Assembly (NCBI GenBank): GCA_018241505.1
Contig: JAFEDS010000005.1
Location: forward strand, 248,001-312,000
Length of the DNA stretch: 64,000 nucleotides
Direction of reading: 5' to 3'
Origin: Pseudomonadota bacterium
GTDB lineage: Bacteria; Pseudomonadota; Gammaproteobacteria; Steroidobacterales; Steroidobacteraceae
Part shown: positions 52,685 to 64,000 of the stretch, piece by piece
Layout: each line of letters opens with the position of its first letter
Position numbering within the stretch: the stretch's first letter is position 1
Position numbers and translations under genes: made by a program
Notes under the pieces: generated by a model
Told to the model about the DNA's origin: nothing
What the model saw: the letters and a program-made list of their open reading frames with translations, nothing else
Database searches by the model: none

Positions 52685-53878
52685 TTGGCTGTTCCGCTAT
52701 TTCAAGGGCTGAAGGTCGGGCAATACATTGCCGGCAAGAGACTGCGCGGCATCAAGCGCTACCCGTTGGTGTTGATGCTGGAGCCGCTGTTTCAATGCAA
52801 CCTGGCCTGCGCCGGGTGCGGCAAAATTGACTATCCGAAGGAAACTCTGCAGAAGCGCGTGAGCGTCGAGGACGCGTTGCGCGCGGTCGACGAATGTGGC
52901 GCGCCGATGGTGTCCATTCCGGGTGGCGAGCCGCTGATCCACAAGGAGATGCCGCAAATCGTCGCCGGGATCGTGGCGCGCAAGAAGTTTGTGTACCTGT
53001 GCACGAACGCCATCCTGCTGCCGAAACACATCGACGACTACCAACCGTCCAAATACCTCACGTTCTCCATTCACCTGGATGGCAGCCGCGAGCGTCACGA
53101 CGAGTCGGTTTGCCAGGAAGGCGTTTTCGACAAGGCCGTTGCGGCCATCAAGCTGGCTCGCAGCAAGGGCTTTCGCGTAACCATCAACTGCACGTTGTTC
53201 AGCGGCGAGAATCCGGACGAGGTGGCGGCGTTTTTTGACGAAGCCATGCAGCTCGGCATCGAGGGCATCATGGTCTCGCCCGGCTACAGCTATCATCACG
53301 CGCCGCGCCAGGATGTTTTCCTGGGCCGCAGCGCGAGCAAGCGGCTGTTCCGTGAAATTTTCAAACGCGGTGCCGCGGAAAGCTCGAAGAAAGGCTTCTC
53401 CAAGCCGCGCTGGTCTTTCAATCACTCCGGCCTGTTCCTCGATTTCCTGGCCGGTAACCAGGCCTATCAGTGCACGCCGTGGAGCACACCGACCTACAAC
53501 CTATTCGGTTGGCAACGTCCGTGTTACCTGCTGACTGACGAAGGCTACGCGCCAACGTTCAAGTCTCTCATGGAGGATACGGACTGGGACAAGTACGGCG
53601 TGGGCCGTAACCCGGCGTGCGACAACTGCATGGCTCATTGCGGCTTCGAAGGTTCGGCGGTCGACGACATGTTCAGTCACCCGATCAAGGCCCTGAAGAA
53701 CGCACTTCAGGGTGCTCGCACGAGCGGCCCGATGGCCCCCGATCTGCCGATCCTCTATAGCGACAGCGATCATGGCCCGCGTGGCGGGACTGTGGCGACT
53801 GTCGCAGTCACTGACATCAAGCGCACCAACCGTACGCCTGACGCCGAAAGCGGCGGCCACCCCTCAAGGCCGCAATGA
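52685..53878 (+). CDS. hpnH: Adenosyl-hopene transferase HpnH (radical SAM)
   Basis: Joins a 5'-deoxyadenosyl group to hopene, the first step to extended C35 hopanoids. 397 aa from TTG 52685, which has AGGAG 7 nt upstream; no ATG fits. The radical-SAM motif CX3CX2C is C38-C42-C45 in CNLACAGCGK. GGEPLIHKEM and the SPGYSYHHAPRQD segment are family-typical. A Cys-containing C-terminal part follows. Overlaps ispA by 4 nt (ATGA). Confidence 0.96.
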   Translation: MAVPLFQGLKVGQYIAGKRLRGIKRYPLVLMLEPLFQCNLACAGCGKIDYPKETLQKRVSVEDALRAVDECGAPMVSIPGGEPLIHKEMPQIVAGIVARKKFVYLCTNAILLPKHIDDYQPSKYLTFSIHLDGSRERHDESVCQEGVFDKAVAAIKLARSKGFRVTINCTLFSGENPDEVAAFFDEAMQLGIEGIMVSPGYSYHHAPRQDVFLGRSASKRLFREIFKRGAAESSKKGFSKPRWSFNHSGLFLDFLAGNQAYQCTPWSTPTYNLFGWQRPCYLLTDEGYAPTFKSLMEDTDWDKYGVGRNPACDNCMAHCGFEGSAVDDMFSHPIKALKNALQGARTSGPMAPDLPILYSDSDHGPRGGTVATVAVTDIKRTNRTPDAESGGHPSRPQ

Positions 53879-54945: not shown

Positions 54946-56121
54946 ATGTCGCTAGACGCTGCACAGATGGAATCCAGCATGTCCGATGAGGCTTACCAGG
55001 ACTACATCCTGCCGGGAGTCTCACGTACCTTTGCGTTGACGATTCCCGAGCTGCCCCAAGCCCTGCGCACGTCCGTTACCAACGCCTATCTGTTGTGTCG
55101 GATCGCCGATACCATTGAGGACGAGCCGGCCCTCTCTCCAACGGCCAGTCTGCATTTCCTGCAGCGTTTTGTCGGCGTACTGTATGGAACAGAGCCTGCC
55201 GCCGCGCTGGCACAGGACCTGGTTCCGCAACTCTCCAAGGAGACGTTACCGGCGGAGCACGACCTGGTGGCCAACGTGGAGCGTGTGGTGCGGGTGACCA
55301 ACCGCCTCGACGCCCAGCAGCGGCTCGCGATCCAACGTTGTGTGGAAGTGATGGCCGGTGGCATGCACCAGTTCCAACAGACCGCGAGCCTGCGGGGCGT
55401 CCCGCGGCTGACGGATCTCGATGACTACTGTTACTACGTCGCGGGCGTCGTGGGCCAGATGCTCACGGAGCTGTTCTGCGGTTACTCGCCCGCAATCGGC
55501 CGGCATCGCGACGAACTTCACGGGCTCGCGGTCTCGTTCGCCCAGGGACTGCAGATGACCAACATCCTGAAGGATGTGTGGGAAGACCGGGCGCGCGGCG
55601 CCTGCTGGCTGCCGCAGGAAGTATTCAGCCCGCACGGCATCGACCTGGGTACCCTGCGCAAGGGCGACAAAGGGTTCGATGCTGCGATGCGCGAGCTGGT
55701 TGGAATCGCGCACGAGCACCTGCGCAATGCGCTGTCATACACGTTACTGATTCCCGGGAAGGAGGCCGGCCTGCGCCGCTTCTGCCTGTGGGCCATCGGA
55801 CTGGCCGTGCTGACCCTGCGCAAGATTGCCGAAACCCCAGGTTTCACCTCCGGCAAACAGGTCAAGGTGCCGCGCTCCGCCGTCGCCGTAACCCGCATAA
55901 CGACCAACATATCCGTGCGTAACAACTGGATGCTCAAACGCCTGTTCGACATTGCCGCCCGAGGGGTGCCCCTCGCGCCGCCGGGGAGTGTGCGCCGCCC
56001 GTCCCGACCCGCACTGTTGCAGAATGGAGCCGCGATCCATTCCGAATACCCACTGGGCGCCGAAAGGCCCGTACAAATTGACCGGGGAGCCCGCCGCTCC
56101 GAAGGGAGATCCGCGCTTTGA
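54946..56121 (+). CDS. Squalene synthase-type prenyl synthase
   Basis: A 391-aa trans-isoprenyl head-to-head synthase. Both Asp-rich motifs are present: DTIEDE (D55-D59) and DVWEDRARGACW. The CYYVAGVVGQMLTELF segment, QGLQMTNILKDV, and a hydrophobic late helix (RRFCLWAIGLAVLTL) resemble true squalene synthases that go through presqualene diphosphate to squalene with NADPH, more than HpnC or HpnD. No hpnC, hpnD or hpnE lies nearby. ATG 54979 (MSDEAYQDY) is an alternative start. TTGA overlap with shc. Confidence 0.88.
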   Translation: MSLDAAQMESSMSDEAYQDYILPGVSRTFALTIPELPQALRTSVTNAYLLCRIADTIEDEPALSPTASLHFLQRFVGVLYGTEPAAALAQDLVPQLSKETLPAEHDLVANVERVVRVTNRLDAQQRLAIQRCVEVMAGGMHQFQQTASLRGVPRLTDLDDYCYYVAGVVGQMLTELFCGYSPAIGRHRDELHGLAVSFAQGLQMTNILKDVWEDRARGACWLPQEVFSPHGIDLGTLRKGDKGFDAAMRELVGIAHEHLRNALSYTLLIPGKEAGLRRFCLWAIGLAVLTLRKIAETPGFTSGKQVKVPRSAVAVTRITTNISVRNNWMLKRLFDIAARGVPLAPPGSVRRPSRPALLQNGAAIHSEYPLGAERPVQIDRGARRSEGRSAL

Positions 56122-58130
56122 GTCGCAATATCCGCGCTATCGAGACAGCCGCCAACAAACGCAACAACCGCCAGGAACTGCTGTCGCAAAGGCTCGAGCG
56201 CCACGAGCAACTGTCGCTCGGCCGCGGTATCGATTCCGCCCGCGAAGAGCTGCTCAACCGGCAGACTGCAGCCGGCTATTGGCTGTTTGAGCTGGAGGCC
56301 GATTGCACGATCCCCGCGGAATACATCATGATGATGCATTACCTCGATGAGATCGACGCGGCTCTCGAGGCGAAAATCGCCGTGTACCTGCGCGCGCACC
56401 AGGCCGATCACGGCGGCTGGCCGTTGTACTACGGCGGTGAGCTCAACCTGAGTTGTACGGTCAAGGCGTATTACGCACTCAAGCTCGCGGGCGACAGCCC
56501 GGACGCGCCGCACATGGTCCGGGCGCGAAAGGCAATTCTCGAGCGGGGAGGCGCCGCCCATGCCAACGTTTTCACGCGAATCGCGCTCGCGCTGTTTGAG
56601 CAGGTTCCCTGGCGCGCGGTCCCGTACATTCCCGTCGAGATCATGTTGCTGCCGCGCTGGTTCCCGTTTCACCTGGACAAGGTGTCGTACTGGTCGCGTA
56701 CGGTCATGGTGCCGCTCTTCATTCTCTGCACCTACAAGCCGAAGGCGAAAAATCCGCGCCAGGTCGGCATCGCGGAGTTGTTCGCGGTCGCACCGGATCG
56801 CGAGCACGATTATTTCCACTCCGGCGGGCCGGAGAGCACCGGTACCCGGCAGCGTTTGCTGAGGTCCGCTTTCCTGGTCGTCGATCGCGTTTTCCGGATC
56901 ACCGACTTCCTGATTCCGCGAGCCATGCGGGCCGCGGCGACCAAGCGGGCTGAGAACTGGTTCCTGGAGCGTTTGAACGGTGAGGACGGGCTCGGCGCCA
57001 TCTTTCCGGCCATGGTCAATGCCCTGGAGGCCATGGTGTTGCTGGGCTATCCGGCGGATGATCCGCGCCGGGTGACGGCCAAGCGCGCGATCGACAAGCT
57101 GTTGGTCGTTGATGCAACTTCCGCTTACTGCCAGCCGTGTGTATCGCCTGTCTGGGACACGGCGCTGGCGGCTCTGGCCGTGGAAGAATCGGGCGGCCCC
57201 GCGGCCGCGGTCGGTGCGGAAGCCGCGCTCGACTGGCTGATGAGCAAGCAATTGTTGGATGCACCTGGCGACTGGCAGGTGAACCGTCCCAACCTGAAGA
57301 GCGGCGGCTGGCCGTTCCAGTTTGCGAACGGCCACTATCCGGACCTCGATGATACGGCGGCCATTGTCTGGGCCATGCAGCGCGCGAATGAGAGCGGCAA
57401 GTACACCGAGAGCATGCATCGCGCGTTGGATTGGCTGAGCGGCATGCAAAGCTCGGACGGTGGTTTCGCCGCCTTCGATGTCGACAACACTCACTACAAC
57501 CTCAATCAGATTCCATTCGCCGACCACGGCGCCCTGTTGGATCCTCCAACGGCCGATGTCACGGCGCGCGTTGTTGCGGCAATGGCGATTGTCGGACGGC
57601 CCCAGGATGCGGCCGCTCTGCAGCGAGCCATCGCATTCCTGCGGCACGATCAGACAGCGGAAGGCTCCTGGTTCGGCCGTTGGGGCACCAATCACATATA
57701 CGGTACCTGGTCCGTGCTCGCCGGCCTCGGACAGGCCGGTATCGGCCCGGATGATGAGGCGGTTCGGCGCGCGGTCGACTGGCTCAACTCGCGCCAGAAT
57801 AGCGATGGCGGCTGGGGAGAGAGCAACGACTCCTATGCCGGCAAGACACACCTGGGCGAGCGAACTGCAAGCACACCTCACCAGACAGCCTGGGCCCTGC
57901 TGGGCTTGATGGCTGCCGGGCAGGCAGGCTCGGTTGCTGCTCGCGGTGGCGTCGAGTACCTGCTGCGCACTCAGAGGGCCGATGGTCTTTGGTCGGATCC
58001 GCACTTCACGGCGCCGGGATTCCCCCGGGTGTTCTATCTGAAGTACCACGGCTATTGCGCGTATTTCCCGCTCTGGGCGCTCTCGGCATATCGCAACCAG
58101 GTGCGGCCTGGAGCCGCTCATTGGCACTGA
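56118..58130 (+). CDS. shc: Squalene-hopene cyclase
   Basis: Cyclises squalene to hopene/hopanol on the membrane. 670 aa, normal. Catalytic DxDDTA is D409-L-D-D-T-A (YPDLDDTAAIVWAM). Several QW repeats are visible (GGWPLYYGGE, DGGFAAFDVDN, QNSDGGWGES, TQRADGLWSD). Starts at TTG overlapping the previous stop, with GGGAG upstream at 56104-56108. The final codons overlap hpnG. Confidence 0.97.
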   Translation: MSRNIRAIETAANKRNNRQELLSQRLERHEQLSLGRGIDSAREELLNRQTAAGYWLFELEADCTIPAEYIMMMHYLDEIDAALEAKIAVYLRAHQADHGGWPLYYGGELNLSCTVKAYYALKLAGDSPDAPHMVRARKAILERGGAAHANVFTRIALALFEQVPWRAVPYIPVEIMLLPRWFPFHLDKVSYWSRTVMVPLFILCTYKPKAKNPRQVGIAELFAVAPDREHDYFHSGGPESTGTRQRLLRSAFLVVDRVFRITDFLIPRAMRAAATKRAENWFLERLNGEDGLGAIFPAMVNALEAMVLLGYPADDPRRVTAKRAIDKLLVVDATSAYCQPCVSPVWDTALAALAVEESGGPAAAVGAEAALDWLMSKQLLDAPGDWQVNRPNLKSGGWPFQFANGHYPDLDDTAAIVWAMQRANESGKYTESMHRALDWLSGMQSSDGGFAAFDVDNTHYNLNQIPFADHGALLDPPTADVTARVVAAMAIVGRPQDAAALQRAIAFLRHDQTAEGSWFGRWGTNHIYGTWSVLAGLGQAGIGPDDEAVRRAVDWLNSRQNSDGGWGESNDSYAGKTHLGERTASTPHQTAWALLGLMAAGQAGSVAARGGVEYLLRTQRADGLWSDPHFTAPGFPRVFYLKYHGYCAYFPLWALSAYRNQVRPGAAHWH

Positions 58131-58837
58131 ACACAGTCGGGATCGTGTGTGCGCTCGCTTCGGAAGCGCGGCACCTGGGTCCGACAGTCCGTTTAGCTGA
58201 GCCGGTGGGATCGTTGCCGGATGGCACGCTGGTGGCCACGACGGGCATGGGCCGCTCGGCCGCCGCAGCCGGGGCGCGAGCCCTGATCACCGCCGGAGCC
58301 GGCGCTCTTGCAAGCTGGGGGATGGCTGGAGGACTCGATCCATCACTGGCAGCGGGCGCAATCCTGCTGCCTACGGAAGTCGTCGGCATCGATGGAAGCG
58401 CTCACCCATGCGAAGCCGGCTGGCGCAGCCGGCTGAGCAGCACCATCACGGCACAAACGGGCAGGCTACTGACGTCCGCGAAGGCCGTTGGATCGGTCGA
58501 GGACAAGGCGGCGTTGTTTCGAAGCACACGTGCCGTCGCCGTCGATATGGAGAGTGCCGCGATCGCCGAAGTCGCTGAAGAACACGGGTTACCGTTCATT
58601 GCAGTCCGCGTGGTCGTTGACAGCGCGGCGGACGTGTTGCCCCGTGCCGTCACTGCCGCAGCAGACAATGAAGGCCATCTGCACATCTGGCGTCTCATTG
58701 GGGCATTGGCTCTCGCGCCCAACGAATTGGCGCCGCTGATCCAGCTTGCACGGCGCTATCGGGCCGCCAATCGTTCACTCGCTGCGATCGCCCGGAAGGG
58801 CTCGCTGGCACTGTCCGCTTTTCCGAGCCCGGCATGA
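58121..58837 (+). CDS. hpnG: Hopanoid-associated phosphorylase HpnG
   Basis: Nucleoside phosphorylase-like enzyme that removes adenine from adenosyl-hopane to give ribosyl-hopane. About 238 aa starting at TTG 58121 (LALNTVGIVCALASEAR), with GGAG 8 nt upstream; the start lies inside the end of shc. GMGRSAAAAGARAL and the VAVDMESAAIAEVAEEHGLPF motif with the active-site Glu are conserved. Its ATGA overlap leads into hpnA. Confidence 0.93.
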   Translation: MALNTVGIVCALASEARHLGPTVRLAEPVGSLPDGTLVATTGMGRSAAAAGARALITAGAGALASWGMAGGLDPSLAAGAILLPTEVVGIDGSAHPCEAGWRSRLSSTITAQTGRLLTSAKAVGSVEDKAALFRSTRAVAVDMESAAIAEVAEEHGLPFIAVRVVVDSAADVLPRAVTAAADNEGHLHIWRLIGALALAPNELAPLIQLARRYRAANRSLAAIARKGSLALSAFPSPA

Positions 58838-59823
58838 AGGCATTGGTGACGGGGGCCACCGGATTTGTCGGTGCGGCTGTTGCGCGCGCGCTCATTCAGG
58901 AAGGTTGGGAAGTCCGCGCGTTGGCGCGCAAAGGCTCGGACCGTCGCAACATCCAACACCTTGCTCTCGCCGTCGCTGAAGGCGACCTGGCAGACAGGGC
59001 GTCGTTGGATCGTGCGCTGACAGGCTGCGACGCACTGTTCCATGTCGCGGCGGACTACCGGTTGGGCGCGTTCGATCCCAAACAGCTCTATCAAACCAAC
59101 GTTGAAGGTACCCGCAGCATCCTCGAGGCATCACGACAGGCAGGCGTCCGCCGGGTTGTGTACACCAGCAGCGTGGCAACCATGGGCATTCCCAAGGATG
59201 GCACGCCCGGCAACGAAGACACGGCTGTCGGGGTTGCCGACATGATCGGGCACTACAAGCGCTCGAAATTTCTCGCTGAGCAGGTTGCGCGCGAAGCAGC
59301 ATTGGCCGGGCTGTCGGTCGTCATCGTCAATCCGTCGACTCCCATCGGGCCCGGGGACATCAAGCCAACACCCACGGGGCAACTGGTCCTGGACGCTGCC
59401 GCCGGCCGGATGCCGGCCTATGTCGATACGGGCTTGAACGTGGTGCATGTCGATGATGTCGCCGCCGGACATCTGCTGGCGTTTCACCGCGGGCGCGTGG
59501 GCGAGCGTTACATTCTCGGCGGACAGGATTTGAGTCTGCGCGATATTCTGGTGGCGATCGCCGGAATCGTCGGCAGGAAGCCGCCCTCGATCCGTCTACC
59601 AACAGGCGTGGTGTTGCCCATTGCGTATGTCGCCGAGGCGTTTGCCCGCGCGACGGGTCGGCCCGGACGGATCACCGTCGAGGGGGTCAGAATGTCCCGC
59701 AAGCGGATGTTCTTCTCGAGCGACAAGGCGCGGCGCGAGCTCGGGTACACCTGGCGCCCCCCAATTGAAGCATTGCGTGATGCCATCGCCTGGCTGCGGC
59801 AGCAGGGCTTGCTGTCCCACTGA
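58834..59823 (+). CDS. hpnA: Hopanoid-associated sugar epimerase HpnA
   Basis: A 329-aa short-chain (extended SDR) enzyme of the HpnA family. NAD-binding ALVTGATGFVGAAVARAL, VVYTSSVATMG and YxxxK (HYKRSKFLAEQ) with the LHVAADYRLGAFD-type segment. Exact substrate unsettled, thought to act on the sugar head group of hopanoids. Last gene of the tightly overlapped hpn run; a 74-nt gap and a new promoter follow. Confidence 0.93.
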   Translation: MKALVTGATGFVGAAVARALIQEGWEVRALARKGSDRRNIQHLALAVAEGDLADRASLDRALTGCDALFHVAADYRLGAFDPKQLYQTNVEGTRSILEASRQAGVRRVVYTSSVATMGIPKDGTPGNEDTAVGVADMIGHYKRSKFLAEQVAREAALAGLSVVIVNPSTPIGPGDIKPTPTGQLVLDAAAGRMPAYVDTGLNVVHVDDVAAGHLLAFHRGRVGERYILGGQDLSLRDILVAIAGIVGRKPPSIRLPTGVVLPIAYVAEAFARATGRPGRITVEGVRMSRKRMFFSSDKARRELGYTWRPPIEALRDAIAWLRQQGLLSH

Positions 59824-59862: not shown

Positions 59863-59891
59863 TTGGAGGGCCCTCAAATCGGGCGTAAAAT
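59863..59891 (+). promoter_or_regulatory. Putative promoter of the phosphonate/lipid genes
   Basis: TTGGAG (59863-59868), 17-nt spacer and TAAAAT (59886-59891). The expected transcription start is at or next to the ATG at 59898, and no Shine-Dalgarno precedes that ATG, so a leaderless message is possible. Inference by eye. Confidence 0.5.
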
Positions 59892-59897
59892 GACACA

Positions 59898-60581
59898 ATG
59901 ACGCCTGAATCAACCCTTTCGTCCGCGCCTTCCGCAGCGGCCCAGCGCCCTTGGGATGCGCGGCTGGCGCGCCGGTTGGTTACGCCCCTGAGAGACACCC
60001 GGACAACGCCAAACCACCTGACAACGCTGCGCCTCGCGGTGGGCCTGGCGGCCGCATCAGCCTTTTTACCGGGCACGTACGGTTGGACGAACATCGGTGC
60101 GTTGCTGATGGTCCTGTCAAACTTCCTGGACCACACGGACGGCGAGCTGGCGCGAATCAGCGGGAAGACCAGCCGCATCGGTCACATCTACGATCTGGCG
60201 AGCGACGCGCTGGTCACCGTGCTGCTGTTCTTCGCCATCGGGATCGGAGTAGGGACGCACGTGGGATCCTTGCTGCAACTGCCACCAGCCTGGCTGGGTT
60301 TGATTGCCGGCAGTGCCGTCGCCCTGATTTTCTATCTGCGGATGCGGATCGAGTCGCTGTTGGGCAAGGCCGGGACCCAACAGGGGTCCCTCGGTGGCTT
60401 TGAGACCGAGGACATCCTGTACCTGATGCCGCTCGTCACGCTGTGCAACGGCCTCACCAACTTTCTCATTGCGGCGGCCATCGGCGCGCCCTTGTTTGCC
60501 TTCTGGGTACTCTTCGATTACTGGCGCGTCGTGCGCCGTCTGCCGCCGCCCGCAGGGCAGCAGACTTCGGAGGTGGCCTGA
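59898..60581 (+). CDS. CDP-alcohol phosphatidyltransferase-family membrane enzyme
   Basis: A 227-aa inner-membrane enzyme. The CDP-alcohol phosphotransferase motif Dx2DGx2ARx8Gx3Dx3D is complete (LDHTDGELARISGK, then RIGHIYDLASDA). About five TM helices. These enzymes transfer a phospho- or phosphono-alcohol from a CDP carrier to an acceptor. With a downstream nucleotidyltransferase and PEP mutase the likely donor is a CMP-phosphonate, but this is inference. It lies 74 nt after hpnA; the oxygenase begins 5 nt after its stop. Confidence 0.9.
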   Translation: MTPESTLSSAPSAAAQRPWDARLARRLVTPLRDTRTTPNHLTTLRLAVGLAAASAFLPGTYGWTNIGALLMVLSNFLDHTDGELARISGKTSRIGHIYDLASDALVTVLLFFAIGIGVGTHVGSLLQLPPAWLGLIAGSAVALIFYLRMRIESLLGKAGTQQGSLGGFETEDILYLMPLVTLCNGLTNFLIAAAIGAPLFAFWVLFDYWRVVRRLPPPAGQQTSEVA

Positions 60582-60586
60582 ACCGC

Positions 60587-61291
60587 GTGTCGAGCCTGGA
60601 CGCCGAGCGACTGCGCCAGGAGTTTGTCCGCCAGGGTTCGTTCCTGTACCTGCCGGAGTTTCTCGAACCCGAGGTGACGGCTCAGCTCGTGGCCGCCATG
60701 AAGGCGGTCGAGCCTTCGGTCAACCGCAACTATCTGCCCGGCCACAAGCAGGGTGGCAGTGTCAGCCGCCACACCCTGGATCAACAGGCACAGTTCATAG
60801 CCCAGTTGTATCGATCGCCCGCGCTCGTGGCCTTGCTGGAGAGCATCGCGGGGGAGCGGCTGCAGTTGTCGCCCGCGGATGACCCGCATGCCTATGCCCT
60901 GTATTTCTATACGAAGCCCGGCGATCACATCGGGTGGCACTACGACACTTCGTACTACGCGGGCCGCCGCTACACGCTGCTGCTCGGAGTGCTGGATCAG
61001 TCCTCCTGCCGGCTGGACTACGAGTTGCATACCCGGGAAGCCGGCGCCACCGTCGTACCGGGATCGGTGCAGATCCCGCCGGGCGGGCTCGTGTTCTTTG
61101 ACGGCGACAAGCTGCGCCACCGCATCACGCCGCTGGGCGAGAACGAAAAGCGGGTGTCCCTGACGTTTGAATATGTGACCGACCAGCGCATGAATCCGCT
61201 GTGGCGGCTCATCTCCAACTTCAAGGACGCGGTCGCGTATTTCGGGCTCCGACAGGTATTCCAGCGCAGCAAGGGACCCGCGCCCCCATGA
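60587..61291 (+). CDS. 2-oxoglutarate/Fe(II) dioxygenase-like protein
   Basis: About 234 aa. The Fe-binding facial triad is H118-x-D120 in GWHYDTSYY and H178 in LRHRIT, with R189 exactly 11 residues later as the 2-oxoglutarate anchor. GTG 60587 is chosen as start (GGAGG lies 13 nt upstream); CTG 60578 is an alternative. Such enzymes hydroxylate or otherwise oxidise small substrates; in phosphonate clusters they can tailor the C-P compound. Substrate unknown. ATGA overlap with the next gene. Confidence 0.86.
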   Translation: MSSLDAERLRQEFVRQGSFLYLPEFLEPEVTAQLVAAMKAVEPSVNRNYLPGHKQGGSVSRHTLDQQAQFIAQLYRSPALVALLESIAGERLQLSPADDPHAYALYFYTKPGDHIGWHYDTSYYAGRRYTLLLGVLDQSSCRLDYELHTREAGATVVPGSVQIPPGGLVFFDGDKLRHRITPLGENEKRVSLTFEYVTDQRMNPLWRLISNFKDAVAYFGLRQVFQRSKGPAPP

Positions 61292-62271
61292 CCCGGGCGG
61301 CTATCTGGCTGCTCTCGGCAGGGGTGTTGCTGTTTGCCGGAGTGCTCATCTCCCAGGGTCTCACGGCGGTGTTTGCCACGCTGGCCGTTGCGGGGTGGGG
61401 ACTGTTTCTCGTCGCGCTGATCCATGTAGTTCCGCTCGTGCTGGATGCGGCCTCGATTCGTGTCATGTTTGACAAAGCCAAGGTCCGCAGCACGCTGTGG
61501 GATGCGATTCTTGCGCGTTGGGTCGGCGAGTCCGCCAACAGCTTCCTGCCCGCGGGCCCCATTGGCGGCCCTGTTGTCATGTCCCGCTATTTTGCGCAGC
61601 GTGGGATGTCGATGCGCGAGGCGGCGGCGGGAGTGACCGTGAGCACTACTTTGCAGGCGCTGGCTCAGATGGTCTTTGCGCTGATGGGCGTGGCAATGCT
61701 CGGCGCACACGCCGCCAGCTCCGAGCACGCGCTTCTCACTCCGCTGCTCGTCGCAGGTGGCGTGCTCACGTTCTGCCTCACAGGCTTCTATCTGGCCCAG
61801 CGCAATGGCTTGTTCGGCAAGCTGGCGCGCCTGCTCCAGCGCTTCCGGGGCCGGCGCGACTGGTCGAAGCTGACCAGCCAGGCCGACGCCATCGATCACG
61901 CGGTGCAGGATGCTTACGGCCGCCGGGGACGGGCGGCAGCCAGCTTTTTTCTCAGCTTCGCGGGATGGGTGATCGGCATCGCCGAGGTCTATGTGATCCT
62001 GCAGTTGCTGCGCTTTCCCGTGAGCTGGAGCGATTCGTTGCTGTTGGAAAGCCTGGGGCAGGCCATCCGGGCCGCCGGGTTTGCCATCCCCGGATCCCTG
62101 GGGATCCAGGAGGGCGGCTACCTGCTGCTGGCGCCGCTCGTCGGCATGCGGCCGGAGACGGCGCTCGCGCTTTCCCTGGCAAAGCGGGCCCGCGAGGTGA
62201 TCCTCGGGGGGCCGGGTCTGTTATACCTGCACTTTTCGGAGCGGGGCTGGCGCCGCCGCTCCGTAGCTTGA
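61288..62271 (+). CDS. HpnL-like membrane protein (LPG synthase TM/UPF0104 family)
   Basis: A 327-aa protein with about eight TM helices, of the lysylphosphatidylglycerol synthase transmembrane/UPF0104 group. ESANSFLPAGPIGGPVVMSRYFAQ and the AGFAIPGSLGIQEGGYLLLAP segment match the hopanoid-associated HpnL subset. HpnL-like proteins are proposed to move lipids across the membrane; this is inference. ATG at 61288 overlaps the oxygenase stop. Confidence 0.85.
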   Translation: MTRAAIWLLSAGVLLFAGVLISQGLTAVFATLAVAGWGLFLVALIHVVPLVLDAASIRVMFDKAKVRSTLWDAILARWVGESANSFLPAGPIGGPVVMSRYFAQRGMSMREAAAGVTVSTTLQALAQMVFALMGVAMLGAHAASSEHALLTPLLVAGGVLTFCLTGFYLAQRNGLFGKLARLLQRFRGRRDWSKLTSQADAIDHAVQDAYGRRGRAAASFFLSFAGWVIGIAEVYVILQLLRFPVSWSDSLLLESLGQAIRAAGFAIPGSLGIQEGGYLLLAPLVGMRPETALALSLAKRAREVILGGPGLLYLHFSERGWRRRSVA

Positions 62272-62282
62272 GAGGCATTTTG

Positions 62283-63035
62283 ATGCGCGCGATTATATTG
62301 GCCGCCGGGCGCGGCATGCGTTTACAACAGGCAGAGGACCAACATACGCCCAAGTGCCTTCTGTCTTTCGACGGAGTGAGCCTCCTCGAACGGCATCTGC
62401 GCATTCTGCGCAAGGCGGGCGTCGACGAAGTGGTGCTGGCGCTGGGATTTCGGCACGACCTGGTGGAGGCTGAGCTCGACCGCCTGGCATGGCAGCCCCG
62501 GCCGCAAATCGTGCTGAACCCCGGGTACGAGCTGGGCAGCGTGCTGACCGTTCATACCGTTGGCGAAGCGCTCACGCGCGGCGGCGATGTGTTGTTGATG
62601 GACGCCGATGTGCTGTATCACGAAGGCATCATGAGCGCACTCGTCGCCGGCCCCAAGCCGGTGAACCGGATTCTCATCGACCGCAATTTCGAGCCCGGTG
62701 AGGAACCCGTGAAGGTATGTGTCAGTGACGGCGTCCCGGTCGAGTTTCGCAAGAAGCTCGCCCCCGACCTGAAATACGACACCATCGGCGAGTCCGTGGG
62801 TTTCTTCAGGTTCGATTCCGCCGGCGCACGCCGCCTCGCCACGCTAGTAGCCGGGTACGTCAACAGCGGCCGTTCCAACCTGCCTCATGAGGAGGCCATT
62901 CGCGACATGCTGTTGGAACGCAGCCAGATCATCGAAGTGACCGATGTCAGTGGGCTCGCGTGGATTGAGATCGATTTTCCCAATGATATAACCCGGGCCG
63001 CACGTGATGTGTTGCCCAGAGTTGCACCGCTGTAA
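62283..63035 (+). CDS. Nucleotidyltransferase, candidate phosphonate cytidylyltransferase
   Basis: A 250-aa sugar-nucleotidyltransferase fold: [11 protein letters not shown] at the N-terminus, [31 protein letters not shown] and a late Asp-containing [10 protein letters not shown]. Similar single-domain enzymes next to PEP mutase genes (PntC type) make CMP-aminoethylphosphonate. The ATG at 62283 fits the fold; the frame is open much further upstream without support. Starts 11 nt after the HpnL-like stop and 11 nt before pepM. Confidence 0.87.
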
Positions 63036-63046
63036 GGACCGCGACC

Positions 63047-64000
63047 ATGAATGCACAAATGGAAACCCGCCCGGCCGCCCATGCGGGCGCCACCCCGTCA
63101 CGCAGCGCCCGCCTGCGCCAGATGCTCCTGAGCGAGCAGCTCGAATTCATCATGGAGGCGCACAACGGCATCTCCGCGCGCATTGTGCGTGAAGCCGGCT
63201 TCAAGGGTATCTGGGGCTCGGGCCTCACGATCTCCGCCCAGTTCGGGGTGCGTGACAACAATGAGGCGAGCTGGACGCAGGTCGTGGACATGCTGGAGTT
63301 CATGGCCGATGCCAGCGACCTGCCGATCCTGCTGGACGGTGACACCGGCTATGGCAATTTCAACAATATGCGGCGCCTGGTCCGCAAGCTCGAGCAGCGT
63401 GGCATTGCCGGTGTGTGCATCGAGGACAAGCAGTTTCCGAAAACCAACAGCTTTCTGAACGGCGAACGCCAGCCACTGGCGGACTCGGCCGAGTTTGCCG
63501 GGAAGATTGCCGCGGGCAAGGACACTCAACAGGACCCGAACTTTTCAATCGTGGCCCGCGTGGAGGCGTTGATAGCGGGTTGGGGCATGGACGAAGCCTT
63601 GCGCCGCGCCGAAGCGTACCGGCGGGCCGGCGCGGATGCCATTCTCATCCATAGCAAGCTGTCGAAGCCGGATGAGATCGTGACGTTCGCACGCGAATGG
63701 GCGGGGCGCGCGCCGCTGGTCATCGTGCCGACGAAGTACTACAGCACGCCCACGGACGTGTTCCGCAAAGCCGGTATCAGCCTCGTCATCTGGGCCAACC
63801 ATCTGATGCGCGCGGCCACCGCGGCCATGCAGAGTGTCGCCAGGGAAATCCACAACAGCGAGACCCTGGTCAATGTCGAAGATCAGGTGGCTTCGGTCAA
63901 TGAGATCTTCCGATTGCAGAACGCCGATGAATATGAGGCCGCCGAGCGCCTGTACCTGGCCGCCGAGGCCTCGCGCAGCGCCGTGGTCCTGGCTGCCAGC
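63047..64000 (+). CDS. aepX: Phosphoenolpyruvate mutase (5' part, cut by the window edge)
   Basis: Rearranges PEP to phosphonopyruvate, the entry reaction of nearly all phosphonate synthesis. Start ATG 63047 (MNAQMETRP), 318 codons visible, open to the end. The catalytic [13 protein letters not shown] and the diagnostic [10 protein letters not shown] (EDKxxxxxNS) loop are intact. This distinguishes it from isocitrate lyase and methylisocitrate lyase. Expected partners such as phosphonopyruvate decarboxylase or aminotransferase would lie past the window. Confidence 0.95.

Follow-up and report, generated by a model that had tools for sequence, protein, structure and literature searches.

Why should a run of phosphonate genes stand directly behind a hopanoid gene cluster? 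The question is raised by a 64,000-nucleotide stretch of a gammaproteobacterial genome from the Steroidobacteraceae (the window; G000:C42:248001-312000 of a 7.88 Mb assembly), in which a hopanoid run (hpnH, shc, hpnG, hpnA) lies directly upstream, on the same strand, of a block encoding a cytidine diphosphate (CDP)-alcohol phosphotransferase, a 2-oxoglutarate (2OG)-Fe(II) oxygenase, an HpnL membrane protein, a nucleotidyltransferase and a phosphoenolpyruvate (PEP) mutase. Hopanoids, which correspond in bacteria to sterols, form a main class of molecular fossils. Judged from its genes, the block may make a lipid with a 2-aminoethylphosphonate (AEP) head group, the acceptor being most likely a hopanoid polyol; we hold this proposal at a little under an even chance. 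That AEP goes to a lipid acceptor is likely. A hopanoid acceptor would be the best single explanation of the gene content, at about even chances, its main rival being an AEP glycerolipid that acts as a partner of hopanoids.

Support for a tie to hopanoids is good in Alphaproteobacteria, and several lineages of beta- and gammaproteobacteria show it as well. Among 387 alphaproteobacterial genomes of at least 90% completeness, PEP mutase (PepM) is found in 33 at E<1e-94, a cut chosen after seeing a gap in the match list, and squalene-hopene cyclase (Shc) in 96; 32 of the 33 PepM genomes have Shc (Fisher p 1.2e-20, not corrected for relatedness). These PepM genomes belong to 20 families, 19 of them with Shc, and the sole genome lacking the cyclase (G798) has an unfused PepM frame of 312 amino acids. 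Relaxing the E limit to 1e-60 raises the PepM count to 47 genomes, of which 38 have Shc; the 14 below the gap include six with Shc. When the alphaproteobacterial and phylum samples are taken together, 38 of the 42 PEP mutase genomes tested have the cyclase, and the four that lack it (G798, G160, G274, G354) are also without hpnH. Four PepM genomes of the phylum sample (G229, G231, G233, G130) were left out of this test; their best frames measure 334-354 amino acids, and their PepM is therefore taken to be unfused.

Physical linkage points the same way. In nine of the 33 alphaproteobacterial PepM genomes, representing six families, shc lies within 15 kb of pepM, where about 1-2% would be expected per genome. 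Under a strict rule with self-chosen thresholds, which requires AEP genes and hopanoid genes to share a stretch no longer than 20 kb, 20 of the 33 are linked, or 22 if two genomes with shc at 14.3 kb (G575) and 14.2 kb (G723) are added. Because many assemblies are fragmented, links across contig ends are missed. We also compared hopanoid loci from which pepM itself is distant. The test set comprised 20 PepM genomes (19 Alphaproteobacteria and G439) with pepM more than 15 kb away or on another contig, the hopanoid loci of G350, G511, G518 and G841 being left out; the controls were 20 genomes, hand-picked, mostly one per family, from the 64 that have Shc but no PepM at E<1e-94, and they include three (G542, G193, G673) with lower-scoring PepM matches. 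AEP-pathway genes (the transferase, a PntC-like nucleotidyltransferase, phosphonopyruvate decarboxylase (Ppd) or AEP aminotransferase) are present in the hopanoid locus of 10/20 PepM genomes versus 0/20 controls (one-sided Fisher p 2.2e-4), three of the ten (G720, G565, G648) having the PntC-like gene only.

At some loci the two gene sets are interwoven. Three of the five f164 genomes (G777, G832, G644) carry the nucleotidyltransferase and CDP-alcohol phosphotransferase genes between hpnA and hpnD-hpnC, with pepM-ppd elsewhere, which is the arrangement expected if attachment of the head group is a hopanoid step. Genome G455 has the order ispA-hpnD-hpnG-transferase-hpnA-oxygenase-nucleotidyltransferase-pepM-ppd-aminotransferase on one strand, with shc on a different contig. 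Genome G524 contains a single frame of 1104 amino acids (L216:13495-16806) that combines a CDP-alcohol phosphotransferase with HpnN (TIGR03480, 959.4 against a cut-off of 751.85).

In the window itself, the initial annotation had described five genes following hpnA on one strand with tight gaps or overlaps, and both the coordinates and the family scores bear this out (Table 1); from hpnA through PEP mutase the intergenic distances are 74, 5, -4, 11 and 11 bases. The adjoining shc, hpnA and hpnH genes score above their family cut-offs (hpnH to TIGR03470, at G000:C42:300685-301668) and hpnG marginally below; two genes named from their translations alone, one polyprenyl synthase-like and one squalene synthase-like, lie between hpnH and shc. 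The window end truncates the PEP mutase gene, of which 747 further bases lie in the contig. The annotation had also proposed looking beyond position 64,000 for a phosphonopyruvate decarboxylase and an aminotransferase, and both are there in that order, each overlapping the gene before it (by 4 and 1 bases) and scoring above cut-off (TIGR03297, 445.2 against 312.5; TIGR03301, 370.6 against 360.8; locus L002). Genes for the AEP route, its activation and its transfer thus form one tight run, and gene content makes it near certain that the route from PEP through phosphonopyruvate and phosphonoacetaldehyde to AEP is encoded in full. A promoter and terminator scan of the 74-base gap after hpnA detected nothing resembling a promoter and a single terminator-like match, which is at background level (mean of 0.5 in shuffles); a single transcript starting at hpnA is therefore possible.

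Table 1. Hopanoid genes and phosphonate block in the window (positions in the window; scores in bits against family cut-offs; SAM, S-adenosylmethionine; SDR, short-chain dehydrogenase/reductase; CMP and CTP, cytidine mono- and triphosphate)
Feature	Positions	Strand	Family match and remarks
hpnH, adenosyl-hopene transferase (hopanoid context)	52685..53878	+	radical SAM + DUF3463; start codon uncertain
shc, squalene-hopene cyclase (hopanoid context)	56118..58130	+	TIGR01507 828.6 vs 431.1
hpnG-like phosphorylase (hopanoid context)	58145..58837	+	TIGR03468 178, slightly below 187.1
hpnA, SDR	58834..59823	+	TIGR03466 490.9 vs 367.65
CDP-alcohol phosphotransferase, proposed CMP-AEP:lipid transferase	59898..60581	+	PF01066 51.4 vs 22
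2OG-Fe(II) oxygenase, HalD/BesD group	60587..61291	+	PF23169 HalD 53 vs 26; GTG start
HpnL membrane protein (LPG_synthase_TM, flippase-like family)	61288..62271	+	TIGR03476 306.3 vs 195.65
Stand-alone nucleotidyltransferase, proposed PntC (CTP:AEP cytidylyltransferase)	62283..63035	+	PF12804 49.3 vs 27
PEP mutase, N-terminal part	63047..64000	+	TIGR02320 398.3 vs 319.55

The block is a real, tightly packed gene run and not a product of chance, because the identical gene order recurs in many genomes; the annotation's proposal that it would be conserved in relatives holds in this sense. A search of 36 further genomes from the genus of the window found one (G005) with a hopanoid-plus-block layout identical to that of the window; another of 78% completeness (G016) has the block split at contig ends, with shc not found; and a third (G001) has pepM-ppd only. 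In a wider scan of genome collections, limited to the best 80 of at least 554 loci and mostly Burkholderiaceae, the lipid-type block is present at 41 loci, 40 of which share the window's gene order, six of these 40 without an aminotransferase match. The remaining 39 loci contain only the PEP mutase fusion and Ppd, accompanied by the aminotransferase in 38 and by a stand-alone nucleotidyltransferase in six. These 39 loci (within L065-L134), mostly from Paraburkholderia, gave no matches to the transferase, oxygenase or HpnL, and perhaps reflect another use of AEP.

Hopanoid genes lie within about 10 kb of the block in G005 (L063), Pararobbsia (L095) and Pandoraea (L138), and of none of the 39 non-block loci. 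The downstream genes, dxs to hpnH, are the same in Mycetohabitans. In Roseomonas marmotae, the AEP genes stand between hpnA-hpnC-hpnD-hpnE-shc-hpnG-hpnH and hpnN in a different order, with no oxygenase match at the locus. The co-occurrence with hopanoid genes that the annotation proposed to search for thus recurs in alpha-, beta- and gammaproteobacteria, with gene orders that differ among the window's genus, the Pandoraea/Pararobbsia/Mycetohabitans group, Roseomonas and several alphaproteobacterial families; hpnA adjoins a CDP-alcohol phosphotransferase gene in several lineages. The cyclase itself is useless as a discriminator in Burkholderiaceae, being above cut-off in all nine non-block genomes examined as well as in 39 of the 41 block genomes; of the two exceptions, the L118 assembly gave no match and the L094 assembly partial matches only.

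How might the encoded proteins act together? Going by family membership, PepM would convert PEP to phosphonopyruvate, Ppd would convert this to phosphonoacetaldehyde, and the aminotransferase would yield AEP. The stand-alone nucleotidyltransferase would then activate AEP as CMP-AEP, and the oxygenase would hydroxylate AEP or its CMP ester, probably to the 1-hydroxy form; where a lineage lacks the oxygenase, the head group would be unmodified AEP. The CDP-alcohol phosphotransferase would transfer AEP or hydroxy-AEP to a hydroxyl group of bacteriohopanepolyol, an acceptor that Shc, HpnH and HpnG would supply, with HpnA in an unassigned step. Finally, HpnL, together with HpnN and HpnM where present, would move the product across or between membranes.

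The choice of the stand-alone enzyme for the activation step takes account of a second candidate in the same locus. The complete PEP mutase is a fusion of 566 amino acids, close to the solved PEP mutase 1m1b and with the EDKxxxxxNS motif in its translation, whose C-terminal part is a second, non-canonical nucleotidyltransferase domain. The stand-alone protein has weak matches to 6pd1 (Treponema denticola PntC), LicC (1jyk) and others; relative to the motif GXG(T/S)RX4-8PK it has Met in place of T/S and nine residues in between, and the catalytic Arg and Lys are kept in 92/92 relatives. In the fused domain the Lys is present in 129/129 relatives, and Gly replaces the catalytic Arg in 92/129. 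Changing that Arg to Ala in the T. denticola PntC leaves less than 10% of the activity, according to the available portion of PMC6697681. Because Arg and Lys are kept in the stand-alone enzyme and the Arg is mostly Gly in the fused domain, we infer that the former makes CMP-AEP. The fused domain (window positions 63962-64000; L002:4963-5745) is retained despite the loss of its Arg, including in 33 of the 80 scan loci where a stand-alone nucleotidyltransferase was not found.

CDP-alcohol phosphotransferases share the motif DxxDGxxARx8GxxxDxxxD, which is complete in the window protein. Its confident model (predicted local distance difference test, pLDDT, 90.5) matches the folds of AF2299, phosphatidylinositol-phosphate (PIP) synthase and CEPT1. 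The fourth Asp of the motif is missing from CDP-alcohol phosphotransferases encoded close to hpnA, hpnL or pepM at seven loci (L213, L218, L223, L224, L231, L237, L244); in the first three, copies with and without this residue adjoin each other. Long CDP-alcohol phosphotransferase frames also occur near hopanoid-type genes in two genomes without a PEP mutase match at E<=1e-60 (G182, L187:11643-12953; G200, L188:781-2022), both with a weakly matching nucleotidyltransferase; these perhaps serve a different head group.

The nearest matches of the oxygenase in sequence are HalD, BesD and a lysine hydroxylase, whose structures were solved with free amino acids; the HalD/BesD group is also closest in fold (solved structures 6nie, 7u6h, 7u6i and 7jsd; model pLDDT 81.6). 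BesD/HalD halogenases have Gly or Ala in place of the facial Asp, whereas an HxD...H...R set is conserved in 54/54 frames of the block enzyme, as HYD in all. The Pfam (HalD) and NCBIfam (BesD) names would make it a halogenase, a function that this triad rules out; since the HxD facial triad is present, the enzyme is of the hydroxylase type. Hydroxylation of AEP is our best guess, because the nearest enzymes were solved with free amino acids and the HxD...H...R residues are in place. The compound 1-hydroxy-2-AEP appears in the abbreviation list of PMC5987646.

HpnL (TIGR03476) is above cut-off in 28 of the 397 genomes of the phylum sample. The idea that HpnL marks phosphonate loci only is ruled out by 40 further HpnL loci, many of which are ordinary hopanoid clusters, some phosphonate blocks and some neither. 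A 62-row tree unites the window-type HpnLs in one clade (17 rows, support 100/99) and scatters other PepM-linked HpnLs among those of hopanoid clusters (nine rows, five changes, at least three of them forced). Given this scatter, the HpnL family appears to belong to hopanoid clusters and to have come together with AEP genes on more than one occasion. The window's genome has a second HpnL above cut-off (G000:C4:34013-34921, L202), which groups with the hopanoid-cluster HpnLs; no match to the other query proteins used was found in its neighbourhood.

Several observations weigh against a hopanoid acceptor. The strict linkage rule is failed by 13 of the 33 alphaproteobacterial genomes; in G516 all AEP genes, including the transferase, together with hpnL, lie 2 Mb from shc; and the other two f164 genomes (G717, G559) have no AEP gene in the hopanoid locus by our rule. 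Within the window's genus, G031 has the block with no hopanoid genes within 20 kb and shc on a different contig. In the genome scan, 3 of the 41 block loci have hopanoid genes within about 10 kb, and no hopanoid query match was found within 15 kb in Burkholderia cenocepacia, B. stagnalis and Cupriavidus P-10. Two genomes (G160, G274) have a fused PepM and neither Shc nor HpnH, their loci showing no HpnL and no comparable CDP-alcohol phosphotransferase. HpnH is useless as a discriminator, being present in all 76 Shc genomes tested (37/37 with PepM and 39/39 without). The HpnN fusion is a single case in an assembly of 180 contigs, and none of the 28 matching plasmid records covers 80% of its frame.

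Some of the same observations bear on the strongest alternative, an AEP glycerolipid. This phosphonate analogue of phosphatidylethanolamine would be formed from CMP-AEP and diacylglycerol, and would be made and exported alongside hopanoids because both lipids share packing or function, in the way that sphingolipids and sterols do. We regard it as a serious possibility, if one on the lesser side. In its modelled fold the transferase is similar to the diacylglycerol-using enzymes CEPT1 and CPT1, and to other family members too. In addition, 38 of the 41 block loci are without nearby hopanoid genes (some flanks end at contig ends), yet these genomes have Shc in 39 of 41 cases, and a phosphonolipid is the published reading of a Nostoc cluster with the same gene set, as given in the accessible part of PMC5987646. 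A glycerolipid alone, however, leaves unexplained the transfer and activation genes that sit inside hopanoid clusters in G777, G832 and G644 while pepM is elsewhere, as well as the interleaving with hpnA and hpnG in G455 and the HpnN fusion.

Transfer of AEP to some other acceptor, such as ceramide or a cell-surface glycan, is improbable. Hydroxy-AEP sphingolipids do occur in Bacteriovorax, and 39 of the 80 PepM relatives in the scan are without lipid-type genes; the available portion of PMC6697681 predicts that the products of phosphonate clusters go mostly into surface glycans and lipids. The block, by contrast, encodes HpnL alongside a membrane CDP-alcohol phosphotransferase, and LicD and glycosyltransferase genes are absent from its eight members. 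The adjacency could also have arisen by chance in a single lineage, through insertion of an ordinary phosphonolipid operon after hpnA, as the variable linkage inside the genus (present in G000 and G005, absent in G031) would allow, but this is unlikely on the counts and very improbable in our estimate, given recurrent linkage with differing gene orders in three classes and the difference between test and control hopanoid loci.

In its broader form, the hopanoid reading predicts a widespread, undescribed class of hopanoids with AEP or 1-hydroxy-AEP head groups, a hopanoid-specific CDP-alcohol phosphotransferase and transport by HpnL and HpnN, with hpnL and possibly hpnA acting partly in this pathway; we place it close to, and just short of, an even chance. 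The functions of hpnA, hpnB and hpnL are described as not established in the available text of a 2025 survey of Alphaproteobacteria (PMC12583986), which, as excerpted, reports no obvious new candidates near the hopanoid clusters studied beyond hpnA, hpnB, hpnL and hpnM. The linkage described here supplies such candidates, namely the CDP-alcohol phosphotransferase, the PntC-like enzyme and the AEP genes. Hopanoids with C-P head groups would constitute a new hopanoid class, would add a new sink to the phosphonate cycle and may escape methods not aimed at them. If an AEP glycerolipid partners hopanoids instead, this would be a bacterial parallel to the pairing of sterols with sphingolipids.

How much of this was already in print? 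The initial annotation named no described pathway with this gene combination, but the combination has been published. The available part of PMC5987646 (2018) lists CDP-alcohol phosphotransferase, 2OG-Fe(II) oxidase, NTP transferase, pepM, ppd, AEP aminotransferase and hpnL as a Nostoc phosphonate cluster, and its Fig. 7 gives the cluster of a lichen Nostoc a Burkholderia counterpart; the gene set is presented there as one for a phosphonate lipid, after Yu 2013. These are the genes named in the window block, but the account, in that part, mentions no hopanoid linkage. PMC8776678 (2021), in the sections available, notes that shc is linked to PEP mutase in Roseomonas, where hopanoid and PEP mutase genes adjoin as they do in the window, and suggests a 'terpene-phosphonate'; the account there is confined to Acetobacteraceae and discusses no genes for transfer, activation or transport. 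The Pnt pathways that use PntC (PMC6697681) have, as here, a PepM with EDKxxxxxNS and a PepM-nucleotidyltransferase fusion, and activate AEP as CMP-AEP, as is proposed for the block; CDP-alcohol and HpnL, both present in the window block, receive no mention in that text. Beyond the terpene-phosphonate suggestion, no description of an AEP-bearing hopanoid, and no account of the wider AEP-hopanoid linkage, was found in the available text of the openly licensed PMC literature, a scope outside which most subscription journals lie; two papers within it (PMC8692599, PMC9765116) do not, in the parts available, join the phosphonate and hopanoid topics. The gene combination is thus already in print, whereas for the depth of the hopanoid tie no account was found within this scope.

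A minor observation concerns the far end of the gene run. An Omp85-family gene (L002:7939-9249 in the window's genome) follows the aminotransferase gene in G000, G005, G031 and L064 and possibly belongs to the operon in this group; in G000 the two genes share 22 bases when the longest start is taken.

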